This document shows positions 864 to 31,180 of a stretch of DNA of 64,000 bases, in pieces (the stretch's first letter is position 1; every line of letters starts with the position of its first letter). Both the position numbers and the translations under genes were made by a program. This DNA is from Akkermansia muciniphila. Its GTDB lineage: Bacteria > Verrucomicrobiota > Verrucomicrobiia > Verrucomicrobiales > V1-33. Below the pieces are notes generated by a model that was not told the origin of the DNA, ran no database searches, and saw only the letters and a list, made by a program, of their open reading frames with translations. The stretch is taken from NCBI GenBank assembly GCA_943333275.1, contig CALQSQ010000017.1, positions 1-64,000 on the forward strand. Reading direction: 5' to 3'.

Positions 864-1997
864 TTAGTAATCCTGGGTGATCACACCGCCATCGTTTTGA
901 CGGACCACGCGCATGGTGGTGAGGGGAATGGCTGCATCGAAATTTTTGATCCGGTTTGCAAGCGCATCCGCCAGGGTCTTTTTAGCGCCGGTCAGTGTGG
1001 TGCGATAACAGACGTATTCATAATTCCAGAAGGCGTACGACCCTTCCTGCACAGCTTGGAGGCTGTAAGGAACTCCATTGTAGTTCAGCGCCCGGCCAAG
1101 TCCGGTCACGGCCGTTGCGGCATCGGCTGTTCCCATGTAGCCGATGTAGGCTTCACCAGCGGGTGAGGTGTTCGTCATTACAGTAGCAAGGGTGCCGCCG
1201 CTGGTGTATCCACCATTGCCTTCCACGACGGGCAGGCCAAGCAGGGTGTATGCAGGCCAGAGGATCTTGGCTGTGATGGCACCACCGGACGTGGTGACCT
1301 GATATTGATTGACCGGATCGATGTTGCTAATTCCCATTTCCGCAAAGGTTGAGGAACGCGTTCCGGAATCAAAGTCCCGGCCAAGGGCATAGACTGTGGT
1401 GGTATCGTCCCCGGGAACCCCTGTGAAAAGAGCCATCGACAGTGTGCCGCTCGAGTAGAGTGCTCGCGCGAGCTGGGGCGTCATGTTATTCAAGCCTGCC
1501 GAGGTGCCCTTATTGGCCACGAATTGAAAGGCGATTACTCCAACTTTTGTAGCCGAAAGAGTTGGGGAGGTGAATTGGGTCGCAGCCTGAGTGGTATCTG
1601 CCATGGAGCAATCCGCAGGTTGGGCATCCGTTCCAGCGGCAAGGCTGGCAGTTCCCCCGACACTCGTTGTGGCACCTGGGAGCAGGAAATTGGCGGTCAG
1701 GGACGTATTGTTGGCCACGAGTTGAATCCCCCCCGTGGAACCGGCGAGGGAGGTGAGATAGATCACCGACTGCGAAGAAACCGTTCCCTTATAAATGGCT
1801 TGATTGGCACTGTTTTGGTTGGTTCCCACGTAACCGTATCCGGCACCAACAGTGCCATTGATCAGGTTTCGGAGGGCGGTATTCATTTGCGTGCGGTAGG
1901 CGGTGGAACCGACAATCCGGACGACGGTCTGGGCCGAAGCCTCTTGGGTAAATGCCACAGCACAGATGGCTACGGCGAGATAGGATGCAATTTTCAT
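864..1997 (-). CDS. secreted phosphate-binding-like (PstS-type substrate-binding) protein
   Basis: Signal peptide MKIASYLAVAICAVAFTQEASA, then VVRIVGSTAYRTQMNTAL...; resembles periplasmic binding-protein start; no transporter genes adjacent. Confidence 0.5.
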   Translation of the reverse strand: MKIASYLAVAICAVAFTQEASAQTVVRIVGSTAYRTQMNTALRNLINGTVGAGYGYVGTNQNSANQAIYKGTVSSQSVIYLTSLAGSTGGIQLVANNTSLTANFLLPGATTSVGGTASLAAGTDAQPADCSMADTTQAATQFTSPTLSATKVGVIAFQFVANKGTSAGLNNMTPQLARALYSSGTLSMALFTGVPGDDTTTVYALGRDFDSGTRSSTFAEMGISNIDPVNQYQVTTSGGAITAKILWPAYTLLGLPVVEGNGGYTSGGTLATVMTNTSPAGEAYIGYMGTADAATAVTGLGRALNYNGVPYSLQAVQEGSYAFWNYEYVCYRTTLTGAKKTLADALANRIKNFDAAIPLTTMRVVRQNDGGVITQDY

Positions 1998-2049: not shown

Positions 2050-2889
2050 TTAGGAGACAGTGGTGATCCCGGCCTTAGTGCGGCGGCGGCGTGTGACCAT
2101 GAGACCGAGAGCCGAGATCAACGTCAGGCTGGCGGGTTCCGGGACCGGGGAAGTGCTAAAACTGAGAACTCCGTCATTTGCGATGGTAAACGTTCCGAGA
2201 TAGTCACCCAAGAGCAAACTCGATCCCGGCGCCATGCGGAACAAGTCCAACGCAGCGAGCCCCGCGCCGGCACCGAAATCTCCCTCGATGGTGGGGTTCC
2301 AGTAGGCAAAGCTGATGCCGCCGGAATTTAGCGCCGTTCCGCCCGGCTGATAGCTGGCATAGGAAGCTGAGTCCGAAACATTTTGAATCACTCCAACCGG
2401 GCTATTGGCAGTGGCTGTTCCACCTTGGTAGCCGGCAGCGCCGGCCATGCCCATCAATTTTCCGGCAGGGGTAGCCTGAGTTGAAGCTGATCCACGATTC
2501 CATGGAGTTTCCTGGACACCAAAAGTGAGTTCTGCTTTGCTCGCGTAGAGGGTGCGGTTCGGATCTCCAGCAGTCGGACCGCTGCCAGCGGCGTTGGTGT
2601 TGGTGCCCATCACCGCCCAATGGACAGCTGAGTTGGAGTTCCAGTTCGAGCCAAACACCGCCGACAAATCAGCGCCGATGTTTCCGACCGGAACTGTAAA
2701 AGTGGAGGCGGAAGGACTCTTGTATAAGGAAGCCTGGCCGATGTTGATCAAATAATCCTGCGTGCCTCCGTCGATGCGGAAACCGAGGAAAATATCGCCG
2801 GGGAGGTAGGTGGCGGCGGATGCCTGGGCGGAAAGTCCGAGGCTGGCGGCGACCAGCATCAAACTCGTTTTGAGGAATGACAATTTCAT
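2050..2889 (-). CDS. PEP-CTERM sorting domain-containing secreted protein
   Basis: Signal peptide MKLSFLKTSLMLVAASLGLSAQASA; C-terminus VPEPASLTLISALGLMVTRRRRTKAG matches PEP-CTERM (VPEP, TM, Arg cluster). Start moved from ORF start 2991 to the internal Met at 2889. Confidence 0.85.
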   Translation of the reverse strand: MKLSFLKTSLMLVAASLGLSAQASAATYLPGDIFLGFRIDGGTQDYLINIGQASLYKSPSASTFTVPVGNIGADLSAVFGSNWNSNSAVHWAVMGTNTNAAGSGPTAGDPNRTLYASKAELTFGVQETPWNRGSASTQATPAGKLMGMAGAAGYQGGTATANSPVGVIQNVSDSASYASYQPGGTALNSGGISFAYWNPTIEGDFGAGAGLAALDLFRMAPGSSLLLGDYLGTFTIANDGVLSFSTSPVPEPASLTLISALGLMVTRRRRTKAGITTVS

Positions 2890-3098
2890 GAGTGATTTGG
2901 GTTTAGTGTAGGGATTGGCTGTGTCGCAGGCTTGAGTTAATTTGCACCATGCGACGCTCCATTCTCTATCTGATGATGTTTTTATCTCCACCTCTTTATG
3001 GTTACGTTTCCGTCGTTTTAAGCATTGTGTCGTTTTTGTTTCTTTATTACGTTAACCGGACGCAATATAGCATGTGACAAAATACTCACCTTGAAGCA

Positions 3099-4274
3099 TC
3101 ATGGCGTGATGACGACCCGCAGGCGGGCAAATCTGCGCACGGCTTCAGTGAAGGGAACAGTAAGTTTCACGTCCTCGGTGCCCGCCACGCTGCCGGGGAC
3201 GATGGTTACCCCTGGTGTGGACGTTGCGGTGTCCGTTCCCACCTGGTAGACCACGGGCCAGCTTCCCAAGGTCGTGCCCAATTCGATGGTGGTAGTGGTG
3301 TCCGCGGTCTTCCGGGCAATGGATCTGGTGAAAGTGAAGACAAAGTTTGCGCCATTGCGACTGGAAACCGGTCCTCCTGCATTGGGAGTCAGAGGGCTGG
3401 ATTCCTGCAGGTATTCCACGCCATTTGGAATCCCGTCGCGGTCATAATCAAAGGAAGCTGCGGCATTCGCTCCAGTAAGACCGAAGCCCGCAATCCATGC
3501 GGCAAATCCCGGGGTGCTCGTCACCGGAGGGGACGTGCTGAAGGTCACAACTCCCGCGCTGGTAATGGTGAATGTCCCCAAATAGGTGCCCAGTTGGGAA
3601 CTGGTTCCCGTCTGCATACGGAAAAGGTCCAGGGCTGCCCCGGCGGCGCCGGAGCCAAAGTCCCCTTCGTTGGAGGGGTTCCAGTAGGCGAAGCTGATGC
3701 CACCGGAATTGATGGCAGTTCCACCCGGTTGATAACTCGCATAGGAGGCCGAATCACTCGAGGTTTGGATCACACCAACCGAACTGTTGGCGGTGACGGC
3801 GTAGCCCGCATAGCCGAGCGGCGCTCCGGCCAAGCCCATCAATTTTGAGGCGGGCCCGGCTTGGGTGCCCGTGGCACCACGGTTCCACGGTGCCTCCTGC
3901 GTGCCAAGAACGGTTTCGGCCTTGCTCGCGTAAAGGGTGCGGTTCGGATCTCCAGCAGTCGGACCAGTGCCAGCGGCGTTGGTGTTGGTGCCCATCACGG
4001 CCCAGTGAACCGCTGCGTTGCTGTGCCAGGTCCCACCGAATATCGCCGACAAGTCGGCGCCAATGTTGCCCACCGGAACCGTAAAGGACGAGGATGAGGG
4101 GGATTTGTAAAGGGAAGCCTGACCAATGTTGATCAGGTAGCACTGGGTTCCTCCGTCGATCCGGAAGCCCATAAAAATGTCACCAGCTGTGTAAGGGGCT
4201 GCATGGGAAAGGGAAGAAATGCCGGTCAGGATGAGGGGCAGGAGGAGGATGGATTTGAGGCGAGACAATTTCAT
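3099..4274 (-). CDS. secreted protein paralogous to 2050..2889 with a different C-terminal module
   Basis: Near-identical body (DIFxGFRIDGGTQxYLINIGQASLYKSP...AVHWAVMGTNTNAAG...), then FDYDRDGIPNGVEYLQ... and RRFARLRVVITP instead of PEP-CTERM. Start taken at MKLSRLKSILLL. Confidence 0.75.
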   Translation of the reverse strand: MKLSRLKSILLLPLILTGISSLSHAAPYTAGDIFMGFRIDGGTQCYLINIGQASLYKSPSSSSFTVPVGNIGADLSAIFGGTWHSNAAVHWAVMGTNTNAAGTGPTAGDPNRTLYASKAETVLGTQEAPWNRGATGTQAGPASKLMGLAGAPLGYAGYAVTANSSVGVIQTSSDSASYASYQPGGTAINSGGISFAYWNPSNEGDFGSGAAGAALDLFRMQTGTSSQLGTYLGTFTITSAGVVTFSTSPPVTSTPGFAAWIAGFGLTGANAAASFDYDRDGIPNGVEYLQESSPLTPNAGGPVSSRNGANFVFTFTRSIARKTADTTTTIELGTTLGSWPVVYQVGTDTATSTPGVTIVPGSVAGTEDVKLTVPFTEAVRRFARLRVVITP

Positions 4275-4598: not shown

Positions 4599-6023
4599 TC
4601 AGCGTTTAGCGCCCAGCTCGAAGGTCAACAGGCCGCGTCCAGGCAAAGTGCCGCGGATCGAGGCAGAAGGAGGCGCATCCGGAAGTGATACAGCGTCCTC
4701 CGCAGGGGAGGTCCGCCAGGCCCGCGCAGGGGAGGTTTGAAAATCCTTGGGCAGGGCGAGTTCAAACAAGACCGGCGCGTCCTGCACGGCCGCCATGTGC
4801 ACCACGAGGCGTTTGCCATCCGGATCGGCAAAGGCGGCGACTTTGAGGCCCGGGGTGGAAAATCCACTGGCGGCTGGTCCGCGCAGGTCGGTTGGAATCA
4901 GTCGCATGCCCGGCTTGAGAGGCTGGCACCATTGGCGGTAACCGTGGTAGATTTTCGTCAAGATGAACTCTTTTCCCCAATCCAGATGGATCAACGCCTC
5001 GCCTCCCTGTCTTGGAGGATAGACCCAGTCATAGGCGAACCAGGCGGTGGCGCCACCATTGAAGGCTTCACTCATGGCGAGCCAGAATTCGCCGGCGGAA
5101 TTGATCTGACCCGCGCTTTTGTCAGGTCCATTGACACACCATTCAGTGCACCAGACGGGACGTTTGTCGGCGGCTTTGACGAGGGTTTTCCAGCGATCAC
5201 CGCGACGATCATAGTCATGGCTGCCGATCACATCGACGTATTTGCCCGCCGTCCGCAGCAACGGTGGAAGCCAGTTGGTGGCGCAATCGACCGAACTGAG
5301 GACATTGGGGGCCACCAATTTCGGACGGGGCACTTCCGGGTGACGCTTGACCATTTCTTCCAGGTAGGTGGCGCATTTTAGAAACAATTCGGCATGCTGC
5401 TTGGGATTGAGGCAATATCCGGGCTGGGCGTGCGGCCAGTCAGGCTCGTTGGCAATGCTCAGGTATTTCACCGTCACGCCCTGACGCTGCATGTGGGCAA
5501 GAAAGGCCCACATGTATTCAGCCATTTCCAGCTCCATTTTTGGCAGCAGCGTGGCCCGGGCTTCGCCTCCTCCGGAGGGATCGTGGTTCGTTTTCATCCA
5601 ACCCGGCGGCGTGTAGAGCGTGGCGCAGAACTGCATGTCGGGCCGGCGTGAGAGTGCGGCTTTGCAGATCTCGACGGTGTGCTGGCAGTACGCGAAAGCC
5701 TCCTCCTTGAAGTCCTGCTTGTAGGGATCGTCGTTGTCATTCTCCGGCTCGTGGTCGTGCCGGATGTAGAGGTTGAGAAAGTCTGTGGGCACCTCCTTGA
5801 ACATGGCGTCGTATAGTTTCTCCTGCGCCTCGGCCTTGCCACCCTTGCCCAAGCTGGTGATATGTGCCTCGTAATAAATGGCACCGCACCCCATTCCCTG
5901 AAGCGCCTGACGGGGATGAGTCATGTCCAGCCTGACGAACGTGGGATTCTCCGCCAGCAACATTCCCTGCATCCCCAACCAAAAGATGGCAAGGGCCAGT
6001 GACCGCTTGAAGTTACCGTTCAT
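4599..6023 (-). CDS. secreted glycoside hydrolase, GH30-like
   Basis: Signal peptide; QGMGCGAIYYEAH, YLSIANEPDW (acid/base Glu context) and VWCTEWCVNG (nucleophile Glu context). ORF is open to 6074. Confidence 0.65.
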   Translation of the reverse strand: MNGNFKRSLALAIFWLGMQGMLLAENPTFVRLDMTHPRQALQGMGCGAIYYEAHITSLGKGGKAEAQEKLYDAMFKEVPTDFLNLYIRHDHEPENDNDDPYKQDFKEEAFAYCQHTVEICKAALSRRPDMQFCATLYTPPGWMKTNHDPSGGGEARATLLPKMELEMAEYMWAFLAHMQRQGVTVKYLSIANEPDWPHAQPGYCLNPKQHAELFLKCATYLEEMVKRHPEVPRPKLVAPNVLSSVDCATNWLPPLLRTAGKYVDVIGSHDYDRRGDRWKTLVKAADKRPVWCTEWCVNGPDKSAGQINSAGEFWLAMSEAFNGGATAWFAYDWVYPPRQGGEALIHLDWGKEFILTKIYHGYRQWCQPLKPGMRLIPTDLRGPAASGFSTPGLKVAAFADPDGKRLVVHMAAVQDAPVLFELALPKDFQTSPARAWRTSPAEDAVSLPDAPPSASIRGTLPGRGLLTFELGAKR

Positions 6024-6070
6024 GGGCCGGATCCTACCGCAACCGCGATGCTTCGCAATGGAGGATTGAT

Positions 6071-7129
6071 TCACTGCCCGATCACCGCAGCATCCCGGAC
6101 GTGATAAATCGTCTCTGGCTGAAAACCATCCTGCACCCAGCCCAGATGCGTGGTGGTAATCAACCGCTGGGATGCGGCAGGCAGAGCGGCCAGCAGGGCA
6201 TTGCGGCGCAGCGGATCGAGTTCACCAAAGATATCATCCAGCAGCAGCAGGGGCGCGCGCTGGTGGCGATCCTCAAGCAGCGTGGCCTGGCTGAGTTTGA
6301 GCGCCAGAGCGATCGTGCGCTGCTGCCCTTCAGAGGCGTAATCCGCCGCCGGAAGGTCATTGATGGTCAATAGGAAATCGTCCCGATGGGGTCCGGCCAG
6401 CGTGACGCGCCGCTGGGTTTCCTGCTCACGCCGGGAACGCAGGCTGGCGGCGAGATCCGGACCACTGGCATTGTGATAGGCCAGATTCAGCGACTCAGGA
6501 CGCCCGCTGATGCGTTGATGGGCGGCGGCAGCATGCGGCTGAATTTCCAAGATGAGACGTTCACGCAGCATGGCCAGGGTCGTTCCATGCTCGACGAGAA
6601 TGGCGGTGAAAGCGTCGATCTGAGCCCATTGGGGTGCGGCATCACGCTTGAGCAAAAAGTTCCGGGACTTGAGCGCCTTATCATACTTCCTGAGTGCTTC
6701 GTAATATTCCGGGAATAATTGGATGCCCAGGAAATCGAGGTAGCGACGGCGGGGTTCGCTGGAGCCAGTGACGAGTTCGAGGTCCCCATTTCCCATCCAG
6801 ACCACCAGTCCACTGGCCGCGAGATAGTCCGAGGATTTCCGCACCGGCGAGCCATCCACGCTGAGTTCTCGCACTCCGTTGACCTGGGTGTGCTTTAATT
6901 CCTGCTCTCCCCAGGAACCCGCCACTCCAAATTCCGCGTGGGAAAACCGAACCAGTTCCGCCGGACGGGTGGTGCGGGGACTTTGCAGGCGGAGCAGGAC
7001 ACAAACGGCCTCAAGAATGGAAGTCTTGCCCTGGGCATTGTCGCCGATGAACACGGTTGATCCCCCGGAAAACGGACAAAGCAGGGTCTCGAAGCATCGA
7101 AAGTTGCGCAGGCGGAGGGAGGTGAGCAT
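6071..7129 (-). CDS. recF: DNA replication and repair protein RecF
   Basis: LRNFRCFE, Walker A GDNAQGKTSILEA, LLLLDDIFGELDPLRR signature and GPHRDDFLL. Confidence 0.93.
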   Translation of the reverse strand: MLTSLRLRNFRCFETLLCPFSGGSTVFIGDNAQGKTSILEAVCVLLRLQSPRTTRPAELVRFSHAEFGVAGSWGEQELKHTQVNGVRELSVDGSPVRKSSDYLAASGLVVWMGNGDLELVTGSSEPRRRYLDFLGIQLFPEYYEALRKYDKALKSRNFLLKRDAAPQWAQIDAFTAILVEHGTTLAMLRERLILEIQPHAAAAHQRISGRPESLNLAYHNASGPDLAASLRSRREQETQRRVTLAGPHRDDFLLTINDLPAADYASEGQQRTIALALKLSQATLLEDRHQRAPLLLLDDIFGELDPLRRNALLAALPAASQRLITTTHLGWVQDGFQPETIYHVRDAAVIGQ

Positions 7130-7716: not shown

Positions 7717-9783
7717 TTATTTTAATTCAACTGCGAGCCGGAAAAACGCCCTTTGGAAAGACCCCATTGGCAAGGAGGCGCGGCGTGTTTGCACCGTTCC
7801 GTTGGACGCAACGAGGGTGTCAGTGAATCCCGCAAGGTCGCCGGGAGCCACCCAATTGGAACTGTTACCGGCCTTTGTCTCCGGCCGGAAATTCAAATCG
7901 GATTTGGACGTATCAGCCTTGTATTCGAGAATGAAATTCAACCCGTCGCTCAAAATTTTGGGCAAAACCAGGGAACCATCCAACGCACTCGAAGGATTAA
8001 GACCATAGGCATACTCCAGAAGGTTCGAGGCCCCGTCACTGTCATAGTCAAGTGATGGCTGGGCTGCAATGCTTCCAACAGGCAATCCCGAGGAGTTTTC
8101 ACGAGCCAACGCCCAGGCGGTGAAGCCGGTGGCAGCGGCGACTGTGATCATCTTTGTGGGACCCGGCAGGAAATGCGCTCCGACAAAAGGACTGAGCTTC
8201 ACCACAAAGGAAGGGTAACTGTTGGCGGGAATGGTGACGCTGGTGGTGTCCGTGGAGATCGTTTGATAGTTATCAATGGCAAAAACATTTGGCAATGTGA
8301 TGGCATCTACGAACCACCCGTTGGAATCACTGGTGTTGGGGTAGTAGGTGCCCGAGGCAATGGCGTAGCGGAATCTGATGCGGAAAATTTTCCCATCGAG
8401 GAATGCGAGATTTACCGAACGGGCGTTAAAGGCGGTCTCGCCTGTTCCATTAGTGCCGCCCTGCGACCAGAGCGTCTGCCAGATTTCCCCTCCGTGGAGG
8501 AGAATCTCCACACGGGCACTTTGATCCGAGGTGGCCTGCCGCAGACGGCTTTGAAAATTCAACATCGAGCTGGCCGTGCCGAAATAATTCTGATTGAGCT
8601 CGACAATCTGATCCTCCGGAATCGGGTGTGCCATATGGAACGAGTATGCCCCCTGTTTCTTCACTGTCGAGCTCAGCAGGTTATAACCCGGTGAAATGGC
8701 GGCCACGATGCGGTTGGTGTTTTCCGCGTTTTCCGCTGCCGCCGCTGCCGCCGACCACCACTCGGTCAAATATGAGGTCACGGCCGGCACGCCGGTGAAG
8801 GGCATTTGAAATGGCACGCCGGCGGTGGCCTTGCTGCCTCCGGTGAACTGGGGTGCGGCGTAAGCCAGTTTCAAATCCACTTTCACATTGGCCAGCGAAG
8901 CGGCGACTGTGAAGTTCGAAGTCACATTCAGATCGGCGCATTGCCAGTTGACAGTCTGCGAACCTGCGGGCCGGGACAACGGCAACACCCATCCTCCACC
9001 TTCAGCCGTAAAACAATGATAAGTGGAATGGCTCCCTGTTACGGTCAGGCCGGGCAATCCCTCACCCTCATCGTAAAAATTATTCCCGTTGATGTCGTAA
9101 TAAGCCACCCCTGTCACAAAGACCGGCGATTCCGCACGCAATCCCAATTCCTGGGTTACCAATCGCGGTCCCACATCGCCATTCGTTCCATGCAAAAATC
9201 CGGCGCCGATTTCCCGGTAGTTTGGATTATGCAAATTGACCCGGTGGCCACGGCCATCTTGCATGCCGCCGGCATCCCACCCCCAATCCACTTCAAACGA
9301 GGCATGCGCATGCGGCACACTCTCGACATAGGAAAAAATGTTTTCCGCCACCTGCGTATAATTAAAACCGGCGGCCTGAATCCGCTCAAAAAAGTCCCCG
9401 CCCGCAACCCCGGGATTTTCATCATGCTGCTGCACGGCATTGGTCAGCATCCACTGGCTGTGATTTCTGGCCGACTGGGTGAGCAGCTGATTGGGGGCCA
9501 GGGGGGCACTCGCTGCAATCGCATTGAGTTCCGATTTCATCAGGTTCAGATCCGTTCCGAAATAACCGTAGGAATCCACCGTCGCGACGTCCGTTTCATT
9601 GGCCAGGCGCACGCCTTCGGCTGGAGGATTCGCCCGGGCCCGGTTGATCATTTCGATGTTGGCCTGTTCCTCGCCGGAGGGATCTCCAAAATCATAAAGG
9701 GTGGTGGCCGAACTCTGGCTGGAAAGCACCCAGGAAACGAAGATAGAAAAGACGGTTGGGGAAAAAGCTGGAATACTATCCAT
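7717..9783 (-). CDS. secreted CAP (SCP/PR-1) domain protein with C-terminal Asp-rich linker module
   Basis: MINRARANPPAEG...QSARNHSQWML...AENIFSY...GRGHRVNLHNPNYREIGAGF; C-terminal DYDSDGASNLLEYAYGLNP...FFRLAVEL. Start taken at MDSIPAF. Confidence 0.8.
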   Translation of the reverse strand: MDSIPAFSPTVFSIFVSWVLSSQSSATTLYDFGDPSGEEQANIEMINRARANPPAEGVRLANETDVATVDSYGYFGTDLNLMKSELNAIAASAPLAPNQLLTQSARNHSQWMLTNAVQQHDENPGVAGGDFFERIQAAGFNYTQVAENIFSYVESVPHAHASFEVDWGWDAGGMQDGRGHRVNLHNPNYREIGAGFLHGTNGDVGPRLVTQELGLRAESPVFVTGVAYYDINGNNFYDEGEGLPGLTVTGSHSTYHCFTAEGGGWVLPLSRPAGSQTVNWQCADLNVTSNFTVAASLANVKVDLKLAYAAPQFTGGSKATAGVPFQMPFTGVPAVTSYLTEWWSAAAAAAENAENTNRIVAAISPGYNLLSSTVKKQGAYSFHMAHPIPEDQIVELNQNYFGTASSMLNFQSRLRQATSDQSARVEILLHGGEIWQTLWSQGGTNGTGETAFNARSVNLAFLDGKIFRIRFRYAIASGTYYPNTSDSNGWFVDAITLPNVFAIDNYQTISTDTTSVTIPANSYPSFVVKLSPFVGAHFLPGPTKMITVAAATGFTAWALARENSSGLPVGSIAAQPSLDYDSDGASNLLEYAYGLNPSSALDGSLVLPKILSDGLNFILEYKADTSKSDLNFRPETKAGNSSNWVAPGDLAGFTDTLVASNGTVQTRRASLPMGSFQRAFFRLAVELK

Positions 9784-9898: not shown

Positions 9899-12181
9899 CT
9901 ATAGACCGGTCGGATTCGAGACCTGCAGCCGCAGCATCAGCCTGGGTCCGCTGATGGGGACTGAGGCCGAGTACACTCCTGTTCCGGGCGCAATGGAATG
10001 GGGCACCGGTGTCCAGGATCCGGCCTGCATCGTTGGGGACATCTGCACGGTGTAAGTCAGGCCGGTGGCGGAGGCATCCGGTTTGAAGGAGAAGATCAGA
10101 TTGCTGCCGGACCGTGTGACGGTAGGAAGATTTGCTGAGGTCGCCTGCGCGGAGGCCGGATTGAGCCCGAAGGCGAATTCGACAAGGTTTGGCAGACCGT
10201 CAAGATCTGCATCCACGGTGTCCGAAGATATTCCGCTGTTGAGAGCCGAGCCAAAATGAGCATTGCGCCAGGTTTGGATCGCTGCCGGGGCCACCGCAGT
10301 CACAGTCGTCAAAGGACCGTAAGCAAACCACTGGGTGTCACCAAGTTCCATTTGTGAGACAAGCGAGTAAGTCCCCGCAACCGGGGGCGTGAATTGATAG
10401 GTGGTGGCGGAGGGGGCCAGTTCCGTGGTGCTGATGGTGTTGAAATCCTGGGCGTTGGTGACAGTAATGGCATCGATGTAGGCTCCGCTATTGGTGGAAA
10501 CGTCCTCGAAAGCAGGCCCGGTGGAGGGAACACTCAGGGTGAATCGCAATCGGACAATTTTCCCAGCATAGGCATCGAGGGCAGTGGCGCTGTCCACCGT
10601 TTGAAAGCTGGTTTCCCAGGAGGAGGAACTTCCACTGTCCGTGAAACCATTCCGACTCCAGATCCTCTTCCACTGGGTTCCGCCATTGGTGCTGGCTTCG
10701 ACGTTCAGGGATGTCGCGGTGGTAAGAAACCGGAAGCGATTCTTAAACTGCAGACGCGAGGATGCGGAGGGAATGAAGTCGCGGGCAATGGTGAAGGATT
10801 GCAAGGGGGCATCCAGCGATGGGATGGCCAGATGAAATGCCTTGGAACCGGCAGCCACCGGGCCTGGCGATCCCTGACGTAACGTGTAAGCCGTGGGTCC
10901 GTCAATGATGGTGCTGGGCGCGGGATCCTCCGCTCCCTCCGTCCAGGAAGAGGAACTCAACGAACCTACACGCACGCGCACTCCGCTGGACTCCGGCAGT
11001 TGATTCAGGACGTAGGCACTCGTTATTCCCACCAGGGGATTGGCTGGACCCGTCACCGTCATGGGGGTCGTCAGCGAACTTTCGTCAAACGTGGTGACGG
11101 TGTAAGTATACTGATAGGTGCTCCCGCTGGCCACGAAACCGATCGGTGGTGATCCGCTAGTCAGCGAGATTCCAGCGACGACAATGTTGTAGGAAATATC
11201 CTGCGTTGGCGTGGGAACCACCAGGGAACCTCCGTTGTTGATCTTCCAGACTATGGAATTGTCGCCCACCCCGGAACTGTAAGGCTCCTTGGTCACAGCC
11301 ACTGCAGCGGGTGCCCCGGCACCCGTGGTGCGGGTCATGGCGACGGTCGCGGCGGAGAAGTTTCCCTTCGTGTAGGCACAGGACCAGCGCATCAACCCGT
11401 CTTCATTCACAGTGTTCACCGGATTGGGAACCTGGGAATAGGGGATATAGCCAGCGTTGGGCCAGGGCACTATTTTGGTGGTGGCTGCAGATGGCGGCTT
11501 GAAATCGCCGATGACCCAGATGCTCGAACTTTCCCAATAACTGCCTTGAGAGGGAATACTCCCCATCCCCATCTCGCTGGCCGCCGGATTCAACAGCCAC
11601 CGCCGATGCCCCGCCGCCTCATTTCCAAATCCACCATCAACCATGAAGGAACTGACAGCGCCGGGACCGTACGTGCCAATGGAAAGATTGCCCACGCCCG
11701 CGGCTTGGTTTCCCCAGCCATTTCCGCCATGGGCCGCCTTGTCCGCCATCACGCTGGCATTACCGGGAAAATCGATGGCCGGTTGGTGGGAAAGATTCCC
11801 CTCATTCGACATGATCAATGCCGACCATTGCGACTTGGCATTCTTCGTCGCGGTGAAGATGATGTCCCCAGGCAGGCCGGCTTGCACCCGGTAATAGTTG
11901 ATGCGCCTCTGGCAGTCATTGAGATGGGTGACGGAGACCGTTCCGGGATTGGAGGCGTCGACGTCTCCGGTGAATGCAATGTTGGCCGCATAATTTTCCG
12001 AAGGAACGTAGTGTCGAAAATACCCGGCCTGAGCCCCGATTCTTGTATCGGTGGAAAAGACAAAGCCCACCGCCTCCGGATTGGCAGAAATCAGACTGAG
12101 GAAGGTGGCGTTGGTCAGGCAGCCGAGGAAAATTGCATAGCCAAAGCGCGTGGGGGAAGGCGGCTTCATTATAATTTCCAT
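9899..12181 (-). CDS. secreted CAP-like domain protein with C-terminal Asp-rich linker module
   Basis: LNDCQRRINYYRVQAGLPGDI...NAKSQWSALIMSNEGNLSHQP...GHRRWLLNP; C-terminal DADLDGLPNLVEFAFGLNP...LMLRLQV. True start may be MKPPSP at 12169. Confidence 0.75.
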   Translation of the reverse strand: MEIIMKPPSPTRFGYAIFLGCLTNATFLSLISANPEAVGFVFSTDTRIGAQAGYFRHYVPSENYAANIAFTGDVDASNPGTVSVTHLNDCQRRINYYRVQAGLPGDIIFTATKNAKSQWSALIMSNEGNLSHQPAIDFPGNASVMADKAAHGGNGWGNQAAGVGNLSIGTYGPGAVSSFMVDGGFGNEAAGHRRWLLNPAASEMGMGSIPSQGSYWESSSIWVIGDFKPPSAATTKIVPWPNAGYIPYSQVPNPVNTVNEDGLMRWSCAYTKGNFSAATVAMTRTTGAGAPAAVAVTKEPYSSGVGDNSIVWKINNGGSLVVPTPTQDISYNIVVAGISLTSGSPPIGFVASGSTYQYTYTVTTFDESSLTTPMTVTGPANPLVGITSAYVLNQLPESSGVRVRVGSLSSSSWTEGAEDPAPSTIIDGPTAYTLRQGSPGPVAAGSKAFHLAIPSLDAPLQSFTIARDFIPSASSRLQFKNRFRFLTTATSLNVEASTNGGTQWKRIWSRNGFTDSGSSSSWETSFQTVDSATALDAYAGKIVRLRFTLSVPSTGPAFEDVSTNSGAYIDAITVTNAQDFNTISTTELAPSATTYQFTPPVAGTYSLVSQMELGDTQWFAYGPLTTVTAVAPAAIQTWRNAHFGSALNSGISSDTVDADLDGLPNLVEFAFGLNPASAQATSANLPTVTRSGSNLIFSFKPDASATGLTYTVQMSPTMQAGSWTPVPHSIAPGTGVYSASVPISGPRLMLRLQVSNPTGL

Positions 12182-13310: not shown

Positions 13311-16300
13311 TCAACCCTTGGGAACCGTGGATTTTGCAGCAATCTCGTCCAGCCGATTTCGCAAATGATCCGCCATGATTGTGACATTCGGTTCGTCAAA
13401 AATTTCCAAGTGATTTCCCGGAACACGCTCGATCACGAGTTTATCCACCAGTGAAGTCCAGCCGTAGTCCTCACTGAGGGCGAACTTATCGCTCACCTCC
13501 TCACTGCGCAGCAGCACCAAAGTGGTGCGGAGAGGCTTGGCCTGGTAATTTTCGAGCGATGCGAGATTGCACTCGCGGATCTGCACATAGCGCAGGCGTT
13601 CGTCCTCCGCCTTGACCCCCTGCTTCATCAGCCGCCGCGCCGAGGCGATCTCATTCTCCGTGCGCAGACGTTGCAGGAGTCCGGAACTGAACCGGCCGCC
13701 AAGTTGCAATAATTTACCCGCCACATTGTCGGACTGACTGTTTTTCCAGCTGACCGCGATGCGTTCGCCCAGTGAGTATTCGCGAGCTGGCACATTCGGA
13801 TTTTCCGTGTCAAAAAGTACCACCATGGAGACCTCCTCCCCCGCCGCCAGCAATTGCTGCGCCATCTCGTAGGCCACGAGCCCCCCATAACTGTATCCCC
13901 CCAGCACGTAGGGCCCGCGCCGCTGGGCCGCGCGCACCAGAGCCAGATATTCCGAAGCCACATGCGCGATCGGCCGTATCTCGATGGGGATGGTCTCATC
14001 CACCAGGGCGGGTGATTCCAGTGTGAAGAACGGGCGTTCCCTTCCCAGTCCCGGCAGAAGTCCTTTGTAAAACAACGCACCGCCATCGCCTCCGTGAACG
14101 CCGAAGAATGGCACTTCGGTTCCTCCCTCCTGTATGCACGTCAGGGGCGATCCCTTCCCCCGGGCTCCATTGACACTCGTTTCGATATGCACCGCCAGCC
14201 GCGCCAGGGTCGGGGATTGGAACAGGGTTCCCAGCGGCAGGGAGACTCTGAACTCCTCACGAATGCGCATGAACAACCGCAGGCCATGCAGCGACGTCCC
14301 TCCGATTTCGAAAAAATTATCCTCCGCCCCGACCCGCGGCAGTCGCAAAATTTCCTGCCATATCAACGCGAGCCTTTCCTCAACGTGGTTGCGAGGAGCC
14401 ACGTACGGCGTCTCGCGCAAAGCCGCCTGCTCGCGCTCCGGTTCAGGCAGGGCCCGGCGGTCCAGTTTGCCATTCGGCGTGAGCGGGAGTTCCTCCAGGA
14501 AGACAATGCTGGCGGGAATCATGTAATCAGGCAGTTTGTGTCTGAGGAAATTTCGCAAACTATCAACCGTCGGCCGCTCCAATCCACACACCACATATCC
14601 CACGAGATATTTCTCTCCCTCGGCATCCTCGCGGGCCATGACCGCCGCCTGCCGCACGTCCGGATGAGCATTCAGAACCGATTCAATTTCCCCCAGCTCG
14701 ATACGAAATCCCCGCACCTTCACCTGGGCATCCAGTCTGCCCAGATATTCGAGATCGCGCCCCGGAAGGATCCTCGCCATGTCGCCTGTGCGATACAAAC
14801 GGGCCCCCGGGCGGCCGGAGAGTGTGTCGACCACGAATCTTTCCGCGGTGAGTTCCGGGCGGTTAAAATACCCACGCGCCAATCCCGCGCCTCCGACATA
14901 CATCTCACCAACCACTCCCATGGGCACGGGCTCGCGATGTTCATCAAGCACATAAATCTGCAAATCAGGAATGGGCACGCCAATCACACTGCCACCGCGA
15001 ACATCATTACGGCCGAGGGCGCGGTAAGTGACATGCACCGTTGTCTCCGTGATTCCAAACATGTTGACCAACTGGGGCGAATCATCCCCATGGTTTGCAA
15101 ACCAGGGTTGGAGCGAGGGCATTTCCAAAGTCTCACCGCCAAAGATGACATAGCGCAAGGCCAGCGCGGGTTTATCCCCGGGCAGATCCTCCACCGCCAT
15201 CAATTGCCGGAAGGCACTGGGCGTCTGATTCAGCACGGTCACCCCCTCCGCGGATAGAAACCGGTAAAACTCGTCCGGCGAACGGCTGAGCACATAGGGC
15301 ACCACCACCAGCCTCCCTCCATACAACAGGGCACCCCACATTTCCCAGACACTGAAATCAAACGCCGCCGAATGGAACAGCGTCCAGACATCCTTGCTGC
15401 TGAATTGGAACCACTCCTCCGTTCCCTGCATCAATCGCGCCACATTGCGATGCGTCACGATGCAACCCTTGGGATTTCCTGTCGATCCACTGGTGTAGAT
15501 GACATACGCCGTATCATCCGGATTGACGAGCGTTTGGGGGTCGTTTTGCGAAAGATTGATAAACTCCGCAGCATCATCGAGGAAGAGTTTCTTGCAGCCC
15601 GGCTGCGGCAGGCGCTCCGACAGGCCCTGCTGGGTCAGGAGCACCCGCACCCCGGCATCCTGCAGCATGAAAGTGAGGCGCTCATCAGGGTAACTTGGAT
15701 CCATCGGCAGGTAACCCGCCCCCGCCTTAAGAATGCCAATGAGGGCCGGCACCAGGGTCAGGTCCCGGTCCGTCAGCACCGCCACCAGCATCCCCGGACG
15801 CACGCCGTCCCGCAAGAGGGCATGGGCCACTTGATTGGCGCGCTTGTTCAACTCTTCATAGGTCAGCGTGATCCCATTGCAGGTAAGGGCCGGGGCCTGT
15901 GGTTGCTTCTGCACCATCTGTTCAAACCATGCGTGCAGGCATACATCACCCCCAAAGTTCCGCCCCGGGCTGTTAAAGCCATGCAGGATTTCATGGCGTT
16001 GCGAGGAGGTGAGGATCGGCAGCCTGGCAAGTTGCACACCGGGCATGCGAATAACCGACTCCAGCAACTCACGATAATGATCCAGCCACCGCTGGATGGT
16101 CTCCTCCCTGAAGAGACTTTTCCTTCCCACACAAAACAACTGCAACTCATCGTCGCCATGATAGGCATAGAGCGAGAGTTGGAAATTCGACCGAAGCTTG
16201 TTATTGGGCACAGGGTGAAAACTGACCCCACTGGCAGTTCCCCGTGAAGCCATCCCCTCGAGACTAAACACAGCAGGCACGAACCCCTGCCTCACTCCGG

Positions 16301-19300
16301 CGGTCATGCCGCTGAACTCATCGAGGATTTCGCCCAGCGTGAAATTCTGATGATCCAGCGCCTCCATCATCTGATCGCGCAGCATCGCCAGGAAATATTT
16401 GACCGTCATCGTTGGCTCCAACTGCGAACGCAGGGGCAGAAACTGTACGCAATGTCCCACCAACCCGGGTTGCCCTGCGGCAGACTGGCCTGCAAATGGA
16501 ACGCCCACCAGAAAATCCGACTGCCCGCTCAGCCGGTGCAAGAGAATCTGCCAGGTTCCCAGCAGCAGATTGAAAAGTGTCAGTTTTTTATCGCGGCAAA
16601 ACTGCCCGACTTCCTGCGCCAGTGCGCGCGGCAAATCCAGCCTCCCGGTCAGGGTGTCGTAGCTGATTTCCGCCCTCGGAAAATCAACCGGCAGCAGCAG
16701 CGGGCCCGGTGGATTGGACAATTGATTGAGCCAATAGGATTTGGATTCGGCAAACTCTCCGGCGGCCCGCAGCATGCGTTGTTCGGCGGCATAGGCATCA
16801 AACCGCGGAGCTGGCTCCCCTGGGAATCCTCCGCCACCCTGCGCCGCTGCGTAAGCCAAGGGAAGCTCGGCGCAGAGCACTCCAAACGACCAACCGTCGC
16901 ATGCCAGGTGATGCGCGGTGAGCAGCAGGACATGCTCATTGGCGGACAAAACCACGAGGGCCGCCCGCAGCAGCGGTGGATGGGACAGCGAAAAGGGCGT
17001 GAGAAAATGGGTGCGCTTCATCTCCTCAAGCCGCAGTTGCTGCTCGACGGGAGATACCTCCGCCAAATCCAACAACGGCATGGGCAGGCGCACCTGGGCG
17101 GCAATGGACATCCCCTCCCCGCCTTCCGCAAAACCCGCGCGCAACGCGGTGTGACGCTCCACCAGCAGCCCCAGGGAGGCATGCATGCACTCCACTTGCA
17201 GCGGACCCTGGATTTCGATCGAAATGGATTCGTGGCACGCCGATGACGCCTCTTCACTCATCGATGCCATCAGCAGCAGTTCCTGCTGCGCACCGGTCAG
17301 CGGGGCGAACCCCGGCATCAGAGACGCGACGACCTCCAGCGCTGCCGCAGGCGCGGCGCGGCGCTTTTCCAGATCTTCCTTGACCGGAAGAAATCCTCCG
17401 TCCTGCATGTCCCGAATCGATTCCCTCCATGCATCAAAAATCCCCTCCATGTCCTCGTTCGTATGCTGCGTGCAGAGGAAACTGCTCCGGCCGGCCCACA
17501 CGTGAACGCCGCGCAGCCTCAGGTGCAGGAAAAGCAGTTCGGTATATTTCAACTGCGGAGCGAAATTCACATAAAAGTAACTGCTGAAGTGGGTCAGTCG
17601 AATGGGCACGCCCACCTCATCACAATGCGCATTGAGCATAGCCACAAACTTTGCCGTGCGTGCATTCATCTTTTCCTGCAGGGACGGCCCTTCGGCCTTC
17701 AGATGCAGCAGCACGGCCCTCGCCGCCGCCAGCGCCAGCGGATGCCGGACAAAAGTCCCGGCAAAAAAGGTCACGCCAACTTCGGGCCCTGAATCGTCGC
17801 CATACCGCCAGTTTCCCCCATCCAGCGCATCCATGTATTTGCGCTTTCCAGCCACCACCCCAATGGGCAGTCCACCGCCGATGATTTTCCCATAGGTCGC
17901 AATGTCCGCCTCTATGCCAAACCATCCCGCCGCGCCCCGCGGGTGAATCCGGAATCCATTGACGACTTCATCGAGGATCAGCGCGATCCCGCCCTCCTGC
18001 GTAATTCGCCGCAGATCGTGCAGGAACTGGGCTGGTTGCAACTCCGGACGCCGGCTCTGCACCGTTTCCACCAGCACCCCGGCGATTTCCGATGCATGCG
18101 TTCGGATGATTTCGAGCGACTCCGGATTGTCATAATCCAGCACCAGAATGTTTTCACCCACAGCCTCGGGTATGCCGGGTGCAATCGGAATCGTATGCAG
18201 TTGGTCGCCCTCCAGCATCGGCCGCACCAACACTTCGTCCATGATGCCATGATAAGCCCCCGCAAACATCACCAGCTTGTCCCTTCCGGAGACGGTCCGC
18301 GCCATCCGGATAGCCGCCATGACCGCTTCGCTTCCGGTATCACAAAAACTGACGCGATCCAATCCCGTAAATTCCAGGAACAACTCCGCCACCTCACCAA
18401 CCAGCGGCGACGTGGGTCCGATTTCCATGCCCCGCTCCAACTGCGCCTGCACAGCCTCCACCACAAACGACGGACGATGCCCCAGAAAACCAACGCCGAA
18501 TCCCTGGGTGATATCAATGAACTCATTGCCATCCACATCCCAGATCCGACCACCCTCGGAGCGATCCACGACCAACGGATAAACCGCTTCCTTCCAAAGA
18601 TGATTAAATCCCGCCACCGCCCGCGGATCGGCAAAATGATGACGGTGCCTGGCGGTGAACTCCTTGGACTTCCGGGTTTTTTTCACGTACGCCGCGACGA
18701 GATTCTCCAAGTGCGCGCGCTGGACGCTGGTGAGGGTGCCATCCTTCGCTGTTTGCAACGGACGGAAGGGACCGAACGGAATCTTTCGATCCGCATTCAC
18801 CTTCTGCGACACCGCTTTCACACGATACCGCCGCTGGGTTTCCACCACCCCGGATCTGAGTTCGGCAATCGTTCGTTCAATCAAAGCCAGCCGTTCCGCC
18901 ACCGAACCCGGCACCGCAGCCGGCGCCAGCCCCGTCGGCACGCCGGTAGGCTTGGGCCCAAAGGTCCCCGCCGGCAATTTCGCATCCAAATACGCCGCCA
19001 GAGCGTCCAGGCTATTCAGTTCCTCGGCCAACTGGCGGAAAGTGATCTTCAGGCTGAAATGCTTTTTTAAGAACAAGCTGGCCTGCGTCAGAAAAAGCGA
19101 ATCGAAACCAAGATCAAAAAAGGAAGCGGCGGCGGGAGCCGAACTGATGTCAATGCCACTGGCCTTGTGCAACTGGCCCCGCAGCACCTCAAGTAGATGC
19201 TCACGCCTTGAAATCTCAGTGCCGCCCGTTGCCTCAGGCACCAGCTCTGCTTCACCATGCCCGGCAGCAGCGATCCTCACCGGCCCGGGCGCGAGCATGA

Positions 19301-22001
19301 GCGCGCTCTCACCCACACGCACGGAACCTTCCGGAATCGAGCGCGCGGCCACGAAGGGCTGGCGTTGAAAGGCATAGCCCGGCAGGCCCACCCGTTTCCT
19401 CCGGGTGCCTTCGTGCAGACGCGACCACTCAATCGCCACCCCTCCAAGCCACAGCCGCCCAAGCGCCTGCATCAGGGAGGCTTCCTCCCCGCTGCCATGC
19501 TCCTTGGACGAAGGCAGACAGTTTACGATCATGGTCGCGGCGGCAGCATTGGGATGCTGTTTGGCCATCGTCGTCAGAGCCATCCCAGGCCCAACCTCCA
19601 GCAGGGCGCAGGGCCCCTCCATGAGCACGGAATCCACTCCCTCGGCAAACCGAACCGGCTGCCGGATGTGCTGGACATAATAATCAATGGACACCGCTTC
19701 CCGGTCTGTAATCAGACGCCCGGTCAGATTGGAAACGTAGGGAATCGTCGGTGCCTGGAACCGGATTCCCGCGCAGACTTGACGGAATTTCTCCATGGCC
19801 GGCTCCATCAGGCGCGAGTGAAAGGCATGGCTGGTCAGCAGCCGTCGCGATTGGATCTCCCCCGCCTTTAGTTCCACCTCCATGGCTTCGATGTCCTCCT
19901 CCGATCCGGAGAGCACGACAAGGTTGGGGCTGTTCATGGCAGCAAAATCCACGCCCTCCCGCAGCATCGGGCGCAGGGTGGATTCATTGCTGCGCACGCC
20001 CAGCATGACGCCGGGAGCGCATTCAAACAAAAGTCGTCCACGCGCCGCCACCAGCCTCAGAGCCTCCTCCAGCGTCATTACGCCGGCCAGGCAGGCTGCC
20101 ACGTATTCACCGATGCTGTGTCCGAGCATGAGCCCGGGAGTCACGTCCCAACTCATCAGCAGACGTGCCAGCGCATACTCGGTGATGAACAACGCCGGCT
20201 GGGTGTAGCGGGTTTCCTCCAGCAGATTTTGCGCTTGTGTTTCGAACTCCGGCTCTGGAAAGAGCAGGGTCCTGATGTCCAGATCCAAGTCTGACTTCAG
20301 ACCTTCAGCGCATGCATCGATGCACTCTCGGTAGACAAGTTCGGAGGCATACAATGCGGCCCCCATGCGAATGTGCTGCGATCCCTGCCCTGGAAATAGA
20401 AAGGTCACCGGCACCTGGGTCAGGGAAGTGGCTTGCTTGAAATAATCCTGACCCACCGCCCCGCGCAATTGCGCCGCCGCCCCGGAGACACTCTCCGCGC
20501 CAAGCATCAGACGATGATTGAAGGCCTGCCGCCCCAGCTGCAGGGTGGCCGCCACATCTGCCAGATTCACTTCGGATGATTGTTCGAGATTCTGCACCAG
20601 CTGCTGGCGCATCTCCTCCAGGGCCGTTTCAGACTTGGCAGACAGCACCAGGAGCTGGGTTTTCCCGCCCTTTTCCCGAGGCCGCGCGGGCAGCGATGGA
20701 GCCTCCTCCAGGACTACGTGCGCATTCGTGCCTCCGATACCAAACGAACTCACCCCTGCGCGCAGCGGCTGACCGAGACTGGACCATGGCTTCGTCCGGT
20801 CGTTGACGTAAAAGGGGCTCTTATCCAGACCCAGGGTGGGATTGGGTTGCTGAAAATGCAGGCTGGCGGGAAGGGTTCGGTGATGCAGCGACAACGCCGT
20901 CTTGATCAGCCCGGCCACGCCGGCCGCCGCATCGAGGTGTCCGATGTTGGTCTTGCAACTGCCAATCGCGCATTTCTGAAAACGCCGGTCGCCACCGGAT
21001 CGAAATGCCTCGGTCAGGCCGGCAATCTCGATGGGATCGCCGATCGGCGTCCCAGTGCCATGAGCCTCCACGTAGGTTATGGACTCCGGATCAATCCCTC
21101 CCAGCGCCTGCGCCAGACTGATGACTTCCGCATGACCACTCACACTCGGAGCAGTGAAGCTGACTTTTTCTGCGCCATCGTTGTTGATCGCCGCTCCCTT
21201 GATGACGGCATAGATGCGGTCCCCATCGCGCACGGCATCCTCCACGCGCTTGAGAATCACCGCGGCCGCGCCATTGCCAAAAACCGTGCCTTGCGCCTTT
21301 TCATCAAAGGCCCGGCAGCTTCCGTCAGGCGAGAAAATTCCACCCTCCTCGTAAATATAGCCGCGCTCCTGGGGAAATTTGACACTCACGCCACCGGCGA
21401 TTGCCGCGTCACACTGATAGCTCTGCAGTCCCACCACCGCCTGGCAGACGGCCACCAGAGATGTCGAACACGCGGTGTAAATGTTCAGGGCGGGACCGCG
21501 CAGGTTCAGTTTGTAGGCAACGCGGGTGGCCAGGTAATCCTTCTCATTTCCAATCATGATCTGCTCGGCTCCGACTTGTTCACGAAGCTCAGCGTTGAAC
21601 TGTACCTGACTTTGGAAATAGCTGTTGTTGGACATGCCGGCATAAACGCCGATCGGTCCCGGGGCACGGGAGGGATCGATGGCCGCATCCTCCAAAGCCT
21701 GCCAGCAAACCTCCAGAAACAGCCTCTGCTGCGGATCCGTGGCCTCGGCCTCGCGGGGCTTCATTCCAAAGAAGGTAGCATCGAACCACTCAGGCTTCTC
21801 CAGCACCCCGCGGCGTGCCACGTAATCAGGATCGGCACTCGCCTCCTCCCCGGGCAGGTCAGCCTTGGTAAATGTCGTGATCGTCTCCCGCTCCTGCACA
21901 AGATTGTCCCAAAACGCCGCCAGGTCGTTGGCACCGGGAAATTTCCCCGCCATTCCAACAATGGCAATACCTTCAAGGGGGGCTGGATTAGGGTCATTCA
22001 T
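13311..22001 (-). CDS. hybrid PKS/NRPS: KS-AT-ACP-aminotransferase-C-A(Thr)-PCP-TE
   Basis: KS: TACSTSL, HGTGT, KTNIGHL. AT: GHSIGE, SHAFHS (malonyl type). ACP: DLGFDSL. AMT: YGKIIGGGLPIG. C: HHLACDG. A: YTSGSTGNPKG. PCP: IGGTSL. TE: GYSYGG. Confidence 0.95.
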   Translation of the reverse strand: MNDPNPAPLEGIAIVGMAGKFPGANDLAAFWDNLVQERETITTFTKADLPGEEASADPDYVARRGVLEKPEWFDATFFGMKPREAEATDPQQRLFLEVCWQALEDAAIDPSRAPGPIGVYAGMSNNSYFQSQVQFNAELREQVGAEQIMIGNEKDYLATRVAYKLNLRGPALNIYTACSTSLVAVCQAVVGLQSYQCDAAIAGGVSVKFPQERGYIYEEGGIFSPDGSCRAFDEKAQGTVFGNGAAAVILKRVEDAVRDGDRIYAVIKGAAINNDGAEKVSFTAPSVSGHAEVISLAQALGGIDPESITYVEAHGTGTPIGDPIEIAGLTEAFRSGGDRRFQKCAIGSCKTNIGHLDAAAGVAGLIKTALSLHHRTLPASLHFQQPNPTLGLDKSPFYVNDRTKPWSSLGQPLRAGVSSFGIGGTNAHVVLEEAPSLPARPREKGGKTQLLVLSAKSETALEEMRQQLVQNLEQSSEVNLADVAATLQLGRQAFNHRLMLGAESVSGAAAQLRGAVGQDYFKQATSLTQVPVTFLFPGQGSQHIRMGAALYASELVYRECIDACAEGLKSDLDLDIRTLLFPEPEFETQAQNLLEETRYTQPALFITEYALARLLMSWDVTPGLMLGHSIGEYVAACLAGVMTLEEALRLVAARGRLLFECAPGVMLGVRSNESTLRPMLREGVDFAAMNSPNLVVLSGSEEDIEAMEVELKAGEIQSRRLLTSHAFHSRLMEPAMEKFRQVCAGIRFQAPTIPYVSNLTGRLITDREAVSIDYYVQHIRQPVRFAEGVDSVLMEGPCALLEVGPGMALTTMAKQHPNAAAATMIVNCLPSSKEHGSGEEASLMQALGRLWLGGVAIEWSRLHEGTRRKRVGLPGYAFQRQPFVAARSIPEGSVRVGESALMLAPGPVRIAAAGHGEAELVPEATGGTEISRREHLLEVLRGQLHKASGIDISSAPAAASFFDLGFDSLFLTQASLFLKKHFSLKITFRQLAEELNSLDALAAYLDAKLPAGTFGPKPTGVPTGLAPAAVPGSVAERLALIERTIAELRSGVVETQRRYRVKAVSQKVNADRKIPFGPFRPLQTAKDGTLTSVQRAHLENLVAAYVKKTRKSKEFTARHRHHFADPRAVAGFNHLWKEAVYPLVVDRSEGGRIWDVDGNEFIDITQGFGVGFLGHRPSFVVEAVQAQLERGMEIGPTSPLVGEVAELFLEFTGLDRVSFCDTGSEAVMAAIRMARTVSGRDKLVMFAGAYHGIMDEVLVRPMLEGDQLHTIPIAPGIPEAVGENILVLDYDNPESLEIIRTHASEIAGVLVETVQSRRPELQPAQFLHDLRRITQEGGIALILDEVVNGFRIHPRGAAGWFGIEADIATYGKIIGGGLPIGVVAGKRKYMDALDGGNWRYGDDSGPEVGVTFFAGTFVRHPLALAAARAVLLHLKAEGPSLQEKMNARTAKFVAMLNAHCDEVGVPIRLTHFSSYFYVNFAPQLKYTELLFLHLRLRGVHVWAGRSSFLCTQHTNEDMEGIFDAWRESIRDMQDGGFLPVKEDLEKRRAAPAAALEVVASLMPGFAPLTGAQQELLLMASMSEEASSACHESISIEIQGPLQVECMHASLGLLVERHTALRAGFAEGGEGMSIAAQVRLPMPLLDLAEVSPVEQQLRLEEMKRTHFLTPFSLSHPPLLRAALVVLSANEHVLLLTAHHLACDGWSFGVLCAELPLAYAAAQGGGGFPGEPAPRFDAYAAEQRMLRAAGEFAESKSYWLNQLSNPPGPLLLPVDFPRAEISYDTLTGRLDLPRALAQEVGQFCRDKKLTLFNLLLGTWQILLHRLSGQSDFLVGVPFAGQSAAGQPGLVGHCVQFLPLRSQLEPTMTVKYFLAMLRDQMMEALDHQNFTLGEILDEFSGMTAGVRQGFVPAVFSLEGMASRGTASGVSFHPVPNNKLRSNFQLSLYAYHGDDELQLFCVGRKSLFREETIQRWLDHYRELLESVIRMPGVQLARLPILTSSQRHEILHGFNSPGRNFGGDVCLHAWFEQMVQKQPQAPALTCNGITLTYEELNKRANQVAHALLRDGVRPGMLVAVLTDRDLTLVPALIGILKAGAGYLPMDPSYPDERLTFMLQDAGVRVLLTQQGLSERLPQPGCKKLFLDDAAEFINLSQNDPQTLVNPDDTAYVIYTSGSTGNPKGCIVTHRNVARLMQGTEEWFQFSSKDVWTLFHSAAFDFSVWEMWGALLYGGRLVVVPYVLSRSPDEFYRFLSAEGVTVLNQTPSAFRQLMAVEDLPGDKPALALRYVIFGGETLEMPSLQPWFANHGDDSPQLVNMFGITETTVHVTYRALGRNDVRGGSVIGVPIPDLQIYVLDEHREPVPMGVVGEMYVGGAGLARGYFNRPELTAERFVVDTLSGRPGARLYRTGDMARILPGRDLEYLGRLDAQVKVRGFRIELGEIESVLNAHPDVRQAAVMAREDAEGEKYLVGYVVCGLERPTVDSLRNFLRHKLPDYMIPASIVFLEELPLTPNGKLDRRALPEPEREQAALRETPYVAPRNHVEERLALIWQEILRLPRVGAEDNFFEIGGTSLHGLRLFMRIREEFRVSLPLGTLFQSPTLARLAVHIETSVNGARGKGSPLTCIQEGGTEVPFFGVHGGDGGALFYKGLLPGLGRERPFFTLESPALVDETIPIEIRPIAHVASEYLALVRAAQRRGPYVLGGYSYGGLVAYEMAQQLLAAGEEVSMVVLFDTENPNVPAREYSLGERIAVSWKNSQSDNVAGKLLQLGGRFSSGLLQRLRTENEIASARRLMKQGVKAEDERLRYVQIRECNLASLENYQAKPLRTTLVLLRSEEVSDKFALSEDYGWTSLVDKLVIERVPGNHLEIFDEPNVTIMADHLRNRLDEIAAKSTVPKG

Positions 22002-22010
22002 TTTGGAAAA

Positions 22011-30320: not shown

Positions 30321-30331
30321 ACGTTGCGTTG

Positions 30332-31180
30332 TTACCCGCCTTGGTCGGGCTGCTCGTCCTCCCACCCTGGCTCGTGATCCGACTTCCTGCCAACCCTCGT
30401 TTCCCCAGCCCTGCCTTTTCTCCAAACATCCCGCCGATCCGCCAGCGCCGGAAACGCGAGCCGCCAATCCGACACCACCCGCGCCTCCGCCCGGGCTCTC
30501 AGCAGCATGGGGGCGCTGCCGCCCTCCGCCAGCGTCTGACCACGTGGGTCTATGATCATGCTTCTGCCATTATAAGTGTGCTGCGGATCCTCACCCACGC
30601 GATTGATCCCCACGACATACGCCTGATTCTCAATCGCCCGGGCCTTGAGCAGCGTCTGCCAGTGGTCGATGCGGGCCACGGGCCAGTTGGCAATCACCAC
30701 CAGCAGTTCCGCCCCGAGGGTCGTGGCTTCGCGGTAAAGTTCCGGAAACCTCAAGTCATAGCAGATCGTGGGCGCCACCTCCAAATCCCCGCAGGTGATC
30801 ACCTGCACCTGATTTCCCGCGGCATACACCTCACCCTCCCCGGCCATCGAAAAGGGATGCATTTTCCGATAGCGCCCCAGGCGCGTTCCCTCCGGGGCAA
30901 AGACCATGGCCTCATTCGCAGCCACCTTTCCGGTCTGGCTGGCCACCCCACCGATCACATAGCTCTGACTCTGCCGGGCCAGATCCTGAAGAAACAATTC
31001 CGTCTCACGTCGGCGGTCCACCGTGCCGGTGTCCATCGTGAATCCAACGGCGAACATTTCCGGCAACACCAACAAGGATCCCGGTGCCACGCGCACCTCG
31101 GCGAGCATTGCACGCACTCTTGCGAAATTTCTATCGCGGTCCTCCCAGGCGATGTCTGTCTGGATGCCAATGATTTCCAT
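30332..31180 (-). CDS. carbon-nitrogen hydrolase (nitrilase superfamily, omega-amidase-like)
   Basis: Catalytic Glu LLVLPEMF, Lys RYRKMHPF, Cys ICYDLRFPE. Confidence 0.9.
   Translation of the reverse strand: MEIIGIQTDIAWEDRDRNFARVRAMLAEVRVAPGSLLVLPEMFAVGFTMDTGTVDRRRETELFLQDLARQSQSYVIGGVASQTGKVAANEAMVFAPEGTRLGRYRKMHPFSMAGEGEVYAAGNQVQVITCGDLEVAPTICYDLRFPELYREATTLGAELLVVIANWPVARIDHWQTLLKARAIENQAYVVGINRVGEDPQHTYNGRSMIIDPRGQTLAEGGSAPMLLRARAEARVVSDWRLAFPALADRRDVWRKGRAGETRVGRKSDHEPGWEDEQPDQGG

Follow-up and report, generated by a model that had tools for sequence, protein, structure and literature searches.

The PEP-CTERM/exosortase system (TIGR02595, PF07589) was inferred by Haft and colleagues from the C-terminal position of the signal, its copy number, the signal peptides of its carriers and the occurrence of alternative tails (PMC1569441), and the GlyGly-CTERM/rhombosortase system (TIGR03501) was recognized by like criteria of position, copy number, signal peptides and alternative tails (PMC3237569). 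PEP-CTERM spans ~24 residues with a motif, a membrane helix and a basic cluster, and GlyGly-CTERM is a short signal that contains a membrane helix and has a known enzyme. Substrates of type IX secretion enter the periplasm by means of a signal peptide and carry a folded β-sandwich C-terminal signal. The placement of the many large secreted proteins of Verrucomicrobiota, a phylum that includes Akkermansia and polymer degraders of soil and water, is largely unknown. We analyzed a 64,000-nucleotide stretch of DNA (the window) on contig C17 of a 5.79-Mb draft genome of Akkermansia muciniphila (215 contigs), in which two adjoining genes encode one protein body with different C-terminal tails.

A preliminary description of this DNA had reported a tail swap between neighboring paralogs whose bodies were near-identical up to FSTSP. 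The swap and the positions of the genes were confirmed. The gene at 3102-4274 (-) encodes a 391-aa protein with an N-terminal signal peptide that ends in a 142-aa module (3102-3527, -), and the adjoining gene at 2053-2889 (-) encodes a 279-aa protein that ends in PEP-CTERM. The bodies are shared and their alignment stops at FSTSP, with no alignment beyond it and thus a sharp junction, but "near-identical" was too strong, because only 185 of 249 aa (74%) are identical. At the DNA level the long identical runs of the pair are 31 and 32 bp, and there are no others. The two runs lie next to each other, within 2549-2613 of one paralog and 3934-3998 of the other (-), in otherwise diverged paralogs, which hints at local gene conversion and would fit occasional conversion.

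The PEP-CTERM sequence VPEPASLTLISALGLMVTRRRR (2080-2145, -) gave marginal profile scores, 16.3 bits against TIGR02595 (NCBIfam cut-off 16) and 17.9 bits against PF07589, under the Pfam cut-off of 20.7, and nine residues follow its RRRR. The assignment is supported because relatives at the same gene position carry cleaner PEP-CTERM tails; with its motif, hydrophobic stretch and basic cluster, we regard the tail as a weak but genuine PEP-CTERM. The genome also encodes two PF09721 exosortase proteins, on contigs C11 and C98.

The module has no Pfam or NCBIfam model, and the window tail matched no family in either collection; it was described nowhere in the literature searched, which included few subscription papers. 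Copies range from 110 to 145 residues. Among 133 of them, a tryptophan in the predicted first helix (3495-3497, -; helix from the structure model) is conserved at 99% and a second tryptophan at 98%. The module contains an EF-hand-like 12-residue loop, DYDRDGIPNGVE (3414-3449, -; consensus DPDGDGLxNLLE), with the extended consensus DPDGDGLxNLLEYALGxxP, in which D1, D3, D5, N9 and E12 occur at 91-98% in the same 133 copies with the spacing of an EF-hand loop; from this loop we infer that the module binds Ca2+. The last strand, RRFARLRV (3114-3137, -; consensus FxRLxV), lies four residues from the protein end, and across the copies it ends a few residues short of the stop, with F at 91% and R at 95%. 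The loop and this strand, including its charged arginine, are the most conserved parts of the module.

AlphaFold2 modeling with 38 module sequences predicted helices followed by a seven-strand sandwich (3108-3368, -; pLDDT 78, pTM 0.58), and a Foldseek search with this model returned many Ig, Fn3 and CBM21 sandwiches. Since all of these matches were above E 0.001, we describe the fold as probably Ig-like. A profile search of the PDB returned calmodulin EF loops and a few β-sheet proteins at E 0.08-0.8 only, and an AlphaFold model of the full module-tailed protein, built from two sequences, was worthless (pLDDT 31).

Searched against the genome, the window tail gave 35 matches at E <= 1, and a profile of 25 module copies gave at least 108 matches at E <= 0.01, partial copies included, compared with 16 matches to PEP-CTERM. 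This genome-wide profile search had been proposed in the preliminary description, and the number of matches means that the module is not a chance resemblance. The count is a floor, as 150 of 239 candidates were scored in the genome itself, and we estimate at least 80-100 module copies on unrelated, putatively exported families. Three further copies were detected in the window by the module profile, at 7723-8130 (-) on a CAP-domain protein, at 9911-10282 (-), and at 61717-62133 (-) on a CotH/lamin-tail protein.

The module is found almost exclusively at the C-terminus. Of 65 full-length copies in the window and 60 further regions of the genome, 62 ended within 8 aa of the stop, and the three non-terminal copies, two of them mid-protein, were all low-scoring; in other genomes, all 78 copies with a visible stop were C-terminal. 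Mid-protein copies, which had been named beforehand as evidence against a sorting role, are thus nearly absent. No carrier in these regions or the window contains two full copies. The carriers are mutually unrelated and include phosphoesterases, CotH/lamin-tail, cyclophilin, PATR-repeat, subtilase, CAP and F5/8 type C proteins. A signal peptide was predicted by a crude rule in 47 of 57 complete carrier frames, with several others recognized by eye, and by a second rule in 54 of 65 carriers; the carriers therefore look exported, in place of the cytoplasmic ones that would have counted against the proposal. Lipoprotein anchoring was considered and rejected, as a lipobox pattern was present in 3 of 54 carriers and convincing in none.

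We scanned one genome per species from 85,462 species with a DNA motif of the module and found 113 module stretches, of which 107 were in records named Verrucomicrobiota, five in records without a phylum name and one in a record under Actinomycetota. The last lies on a 1.6-kb contig binned as Microbacteriaceae (L065), which is probably misbinned Verrucomicrobiota. With a strict pattern that could miss diverged relatives outside the phylum, the core motif appears, as far as tested, to be essentially confined to Verrucomicrobiota.

To follow the swap beyond the window, the shared body was searched in its family and across 291 genomes of the phylum. Neighboring paralogs with mixed tails, one PEP-CTERM and one module-type, were found in ten genomes, eight of which (G000, the source genome, and G001, G003, G004, G005, G006, G229 and G269) have a full-length module in the adjacent pair; the PEP-CTERM paralogs of G010 and G012 are each paired with one that has a shorter β tail. 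In G153 the partner has a long repeat tail, and long tails of choice_anch_D-like, Ig-like and other repeats were also observed on the bodies at L241, L246, L247 and L234. With these repeat tails counted, at least four tail types are found on the body. The source genome contains a third body paralog, on contig C153 (L033/L257, 2396-3568, -), which adjoins a PstS-like gene and has a short β tail resembling the module sandwich in style, without the tryptophan helix and the loop. A search of genome contigs for the body by back-translated peptides gave no match. In a second family, phosphoesterases unrelated to the body, members in the source genome and G376 have the module, those in G428 and G359 have other repeats, and those in further genomes have no recognizable module.

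Maximum-likelihood analysis of 36 body sequences gave a tree on which the tail must have switched between PEP-CTERM and another type 11 times or more. Well-supported branches force all of these switches, and their number is close to that for random labelling of the same tree (11.8). Neighboring bodies are often mutual closest relatives, yet their tails differ. Either the tails were swapped many times, or neighboring bodies were homogenized while their tails stayed different; tail capture and body-homogenizing recombination of neighbors look alike in this tree. Whichever the route, the two-tail arrangement is repeatedly restored or maintained. The swap had been read earlier as functional interchangeability of the module and PEP-CTERM. 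Its recurrence in ten genomes and through at least 11 tail changes supports interchangeability well beyond the one pair, but this does not prove a shared function, because the bodies also take choice_anch_D-like and Ig repeat tails, so that a tail other than PEP-CTERM does not have to act in sorting; the swap could mean "anchored" versus "released".

The module fits the description by which Haft and colleagues recognized PEP-CTERM, being C-terminal and multicopy, carried by unrelated proteins with signal peptides, and replaceable as a suffix. Such features led to the first recognition of C-terminal sorting domains, and the module is therefore a candidate surface-sorting or attachment tag. It differs from PEP-CTERM in being a folded domain of more than a hundred residues, and neither profiles nor the consensus revealed a PEP motif, a membrane helix or a basic cluster in it; lacking a hydrophobic helix and a basic end, it cannot work as PEP-CTERM does. 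GlyGly-CTERM is likewise a replaceable suffix, but the module has neither its short membrane-helix signal nor a known enzyme, and the GlyGly-CTERM and MYXO-CTERM profiles matched none of 25 module copies. The DxDxDG calcium-loop motif is shared with the bacterial TSP3 repeat (PF18884) and dockerin-type loops; TSP3, however, usually forms tandem repeats, whereas the module has a single loop, joined to one particular helix and sandwich, and PF18884 gave weak matches in 4 of 25 copies (best E 0.0044).

The best reading of these data is that a mobile C-terminal module tags exported proteins for a destination beyond the inner membrane. We judge the chances to be evenly balanced that it serves in sorting or attachment, as a folded C-terminal domain with a Ca2+ loop. 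The further proposal, that it is the signal of an undescribed Verrucomicrobiota sorting or surface-attachment system that parallels exosortase/PEP-CTERM and handles scores of proteins per genome, is tentative and falls somewhat short of even. On the best reading, the carrier would leave the cytoplasm by its signal peptide; outside, the EF-hand-like loop would take up Ca2+; the tryptophan helix and the Ig-like sandwich would fold; and the conserved FxRLxV last strand would be read by an outer-membrane or surface partner that exports or holds the protein. At the window locus, the PEP-CTERM paralog would pass through exosortase and its neighbor through the module route, beside a PstS-like binding protein.

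The main rival, less likely than not, is that the module is an ordinary extracellular domain that no machinery reads and that binds a polysaccharide or surface ligand or caps or stabilizes its carrier, in which case the tail swap would set an exosortase-processed form against a released or ligand-bound form. The large size and the predicted Ig/CBM-like fold class would suit a plain binding domain, EF-hand-like loops are common among extracellular structural domains, and the bodies take repeat tails as well. Free-standing binding domains, however, usually occur also internally or in tandem, whereas the position of the module is near-absolutely C-terminal, its full copies are never paired in one carrier, and its most conserved β strand is the last before the stop.

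The module might instead be an unusual substrate of exosortase or of an exosortase variant, a reading suggested by the distribution of the two. The module was detected in 146 of the 291 genomes and exosortase (PF09721) in 215; both were present in 139, the module only in 7, exosortase only in 76 and neither in 69 (p = 3.5e-18, uncorrected for shared ancestry). Five of the seven module-only genomes were re-examined (G126, G240, G250, G253 and G290; G256 and G259 were left out), and all but G126 contain partial module matches only and lack PEP-CTERM. From the counts and these partial hits, full-length modules are therefore nearly confined to genomes with a PEP-CTERM system, although exosortase ranges far more widely, many PEP-CTERM-system genomes being without the module. 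The complete genome G126 (about 2.66 Mb) has two full modules and encodes 18 PEP-CTERM proteins, but no protein in it matched PF09721. Its 18 PEP-CTERM proteins suggest that an exosortase was missed, diverged or lost; a search for a missed one by presumed synteny found nothing, the flanks being unmatched too. We consider an exosortase substrate improbable, since the module has none of the PEP-like motif, hydrophobic helix and basic cluster, G126 has full modules with no PF09721 protein detected, and shared ancestry may enter the co-occurrence figures. A co-occurring dedicated processing enzyme had been proposed as a check; exosortase, the sole enzyme profiled, co-occurs with the module but extends well beyond it, and no dedicated enzyme or partner was found.

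A type IX C-terminal signal (Por secretion signal) is a more remote candidate still. Such signals are, like the module, folded β-sandwiches at the C-terminus, but the module differs in its EF-hand-like loop and tryptophan helix, and the NCBIfam models of type IX sorting domains matched neither the window tail nor any of 25 module copies. SprA_N was found in 0 of the 291 genomes in a search that had no positive-control match and so leaves absence unproved. An assembly or gene-model artefact, which only the draft state of the 215-contig assembly could favor, has next to no probability, being already refuted by repetition of the arrangement in independent genomes, including the single-contig 4.9-Mb G269.

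Among known systems, the module is closest to C-terminal sorting-like modules, and if a dedicated partner exists the system would be new. One body with two tails provides a natural controlled comparison of what each tail does, and the module profile could annotate many hypothetical proteins and serve as a phylogenetic key to the partner machinery.

The body paralogs have a conserved neighbor, a PstS-like secreted binding protein encoded at 864-1997 (-) in the window. Of 14 fetched loci with body paralogs, 13 (L245, L247-L258) have a homolog of this protein (28-39% identity) next to the paralogs, the exception being L246, which runs off the contig end. The family gave no significant match in Pfam, and a profile of seven members matched the PstS phosphate-binding protein 4exl at E 1.5e-7. 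This conservation suggests a previously unnoticed, functional three-gene unit in which the two paralogs, both putatively exported, are joined by the PstS-like protein. Upstream of the paralog pair, the gene at 4599-6074 (-) encodes a secreted glycoside hydrolase family 30-like protein, and farther along the window a pair of hybrid PKS/NRPS proteins, 2896 and 2818 aa long, is encoded at 13311-30467 (-).
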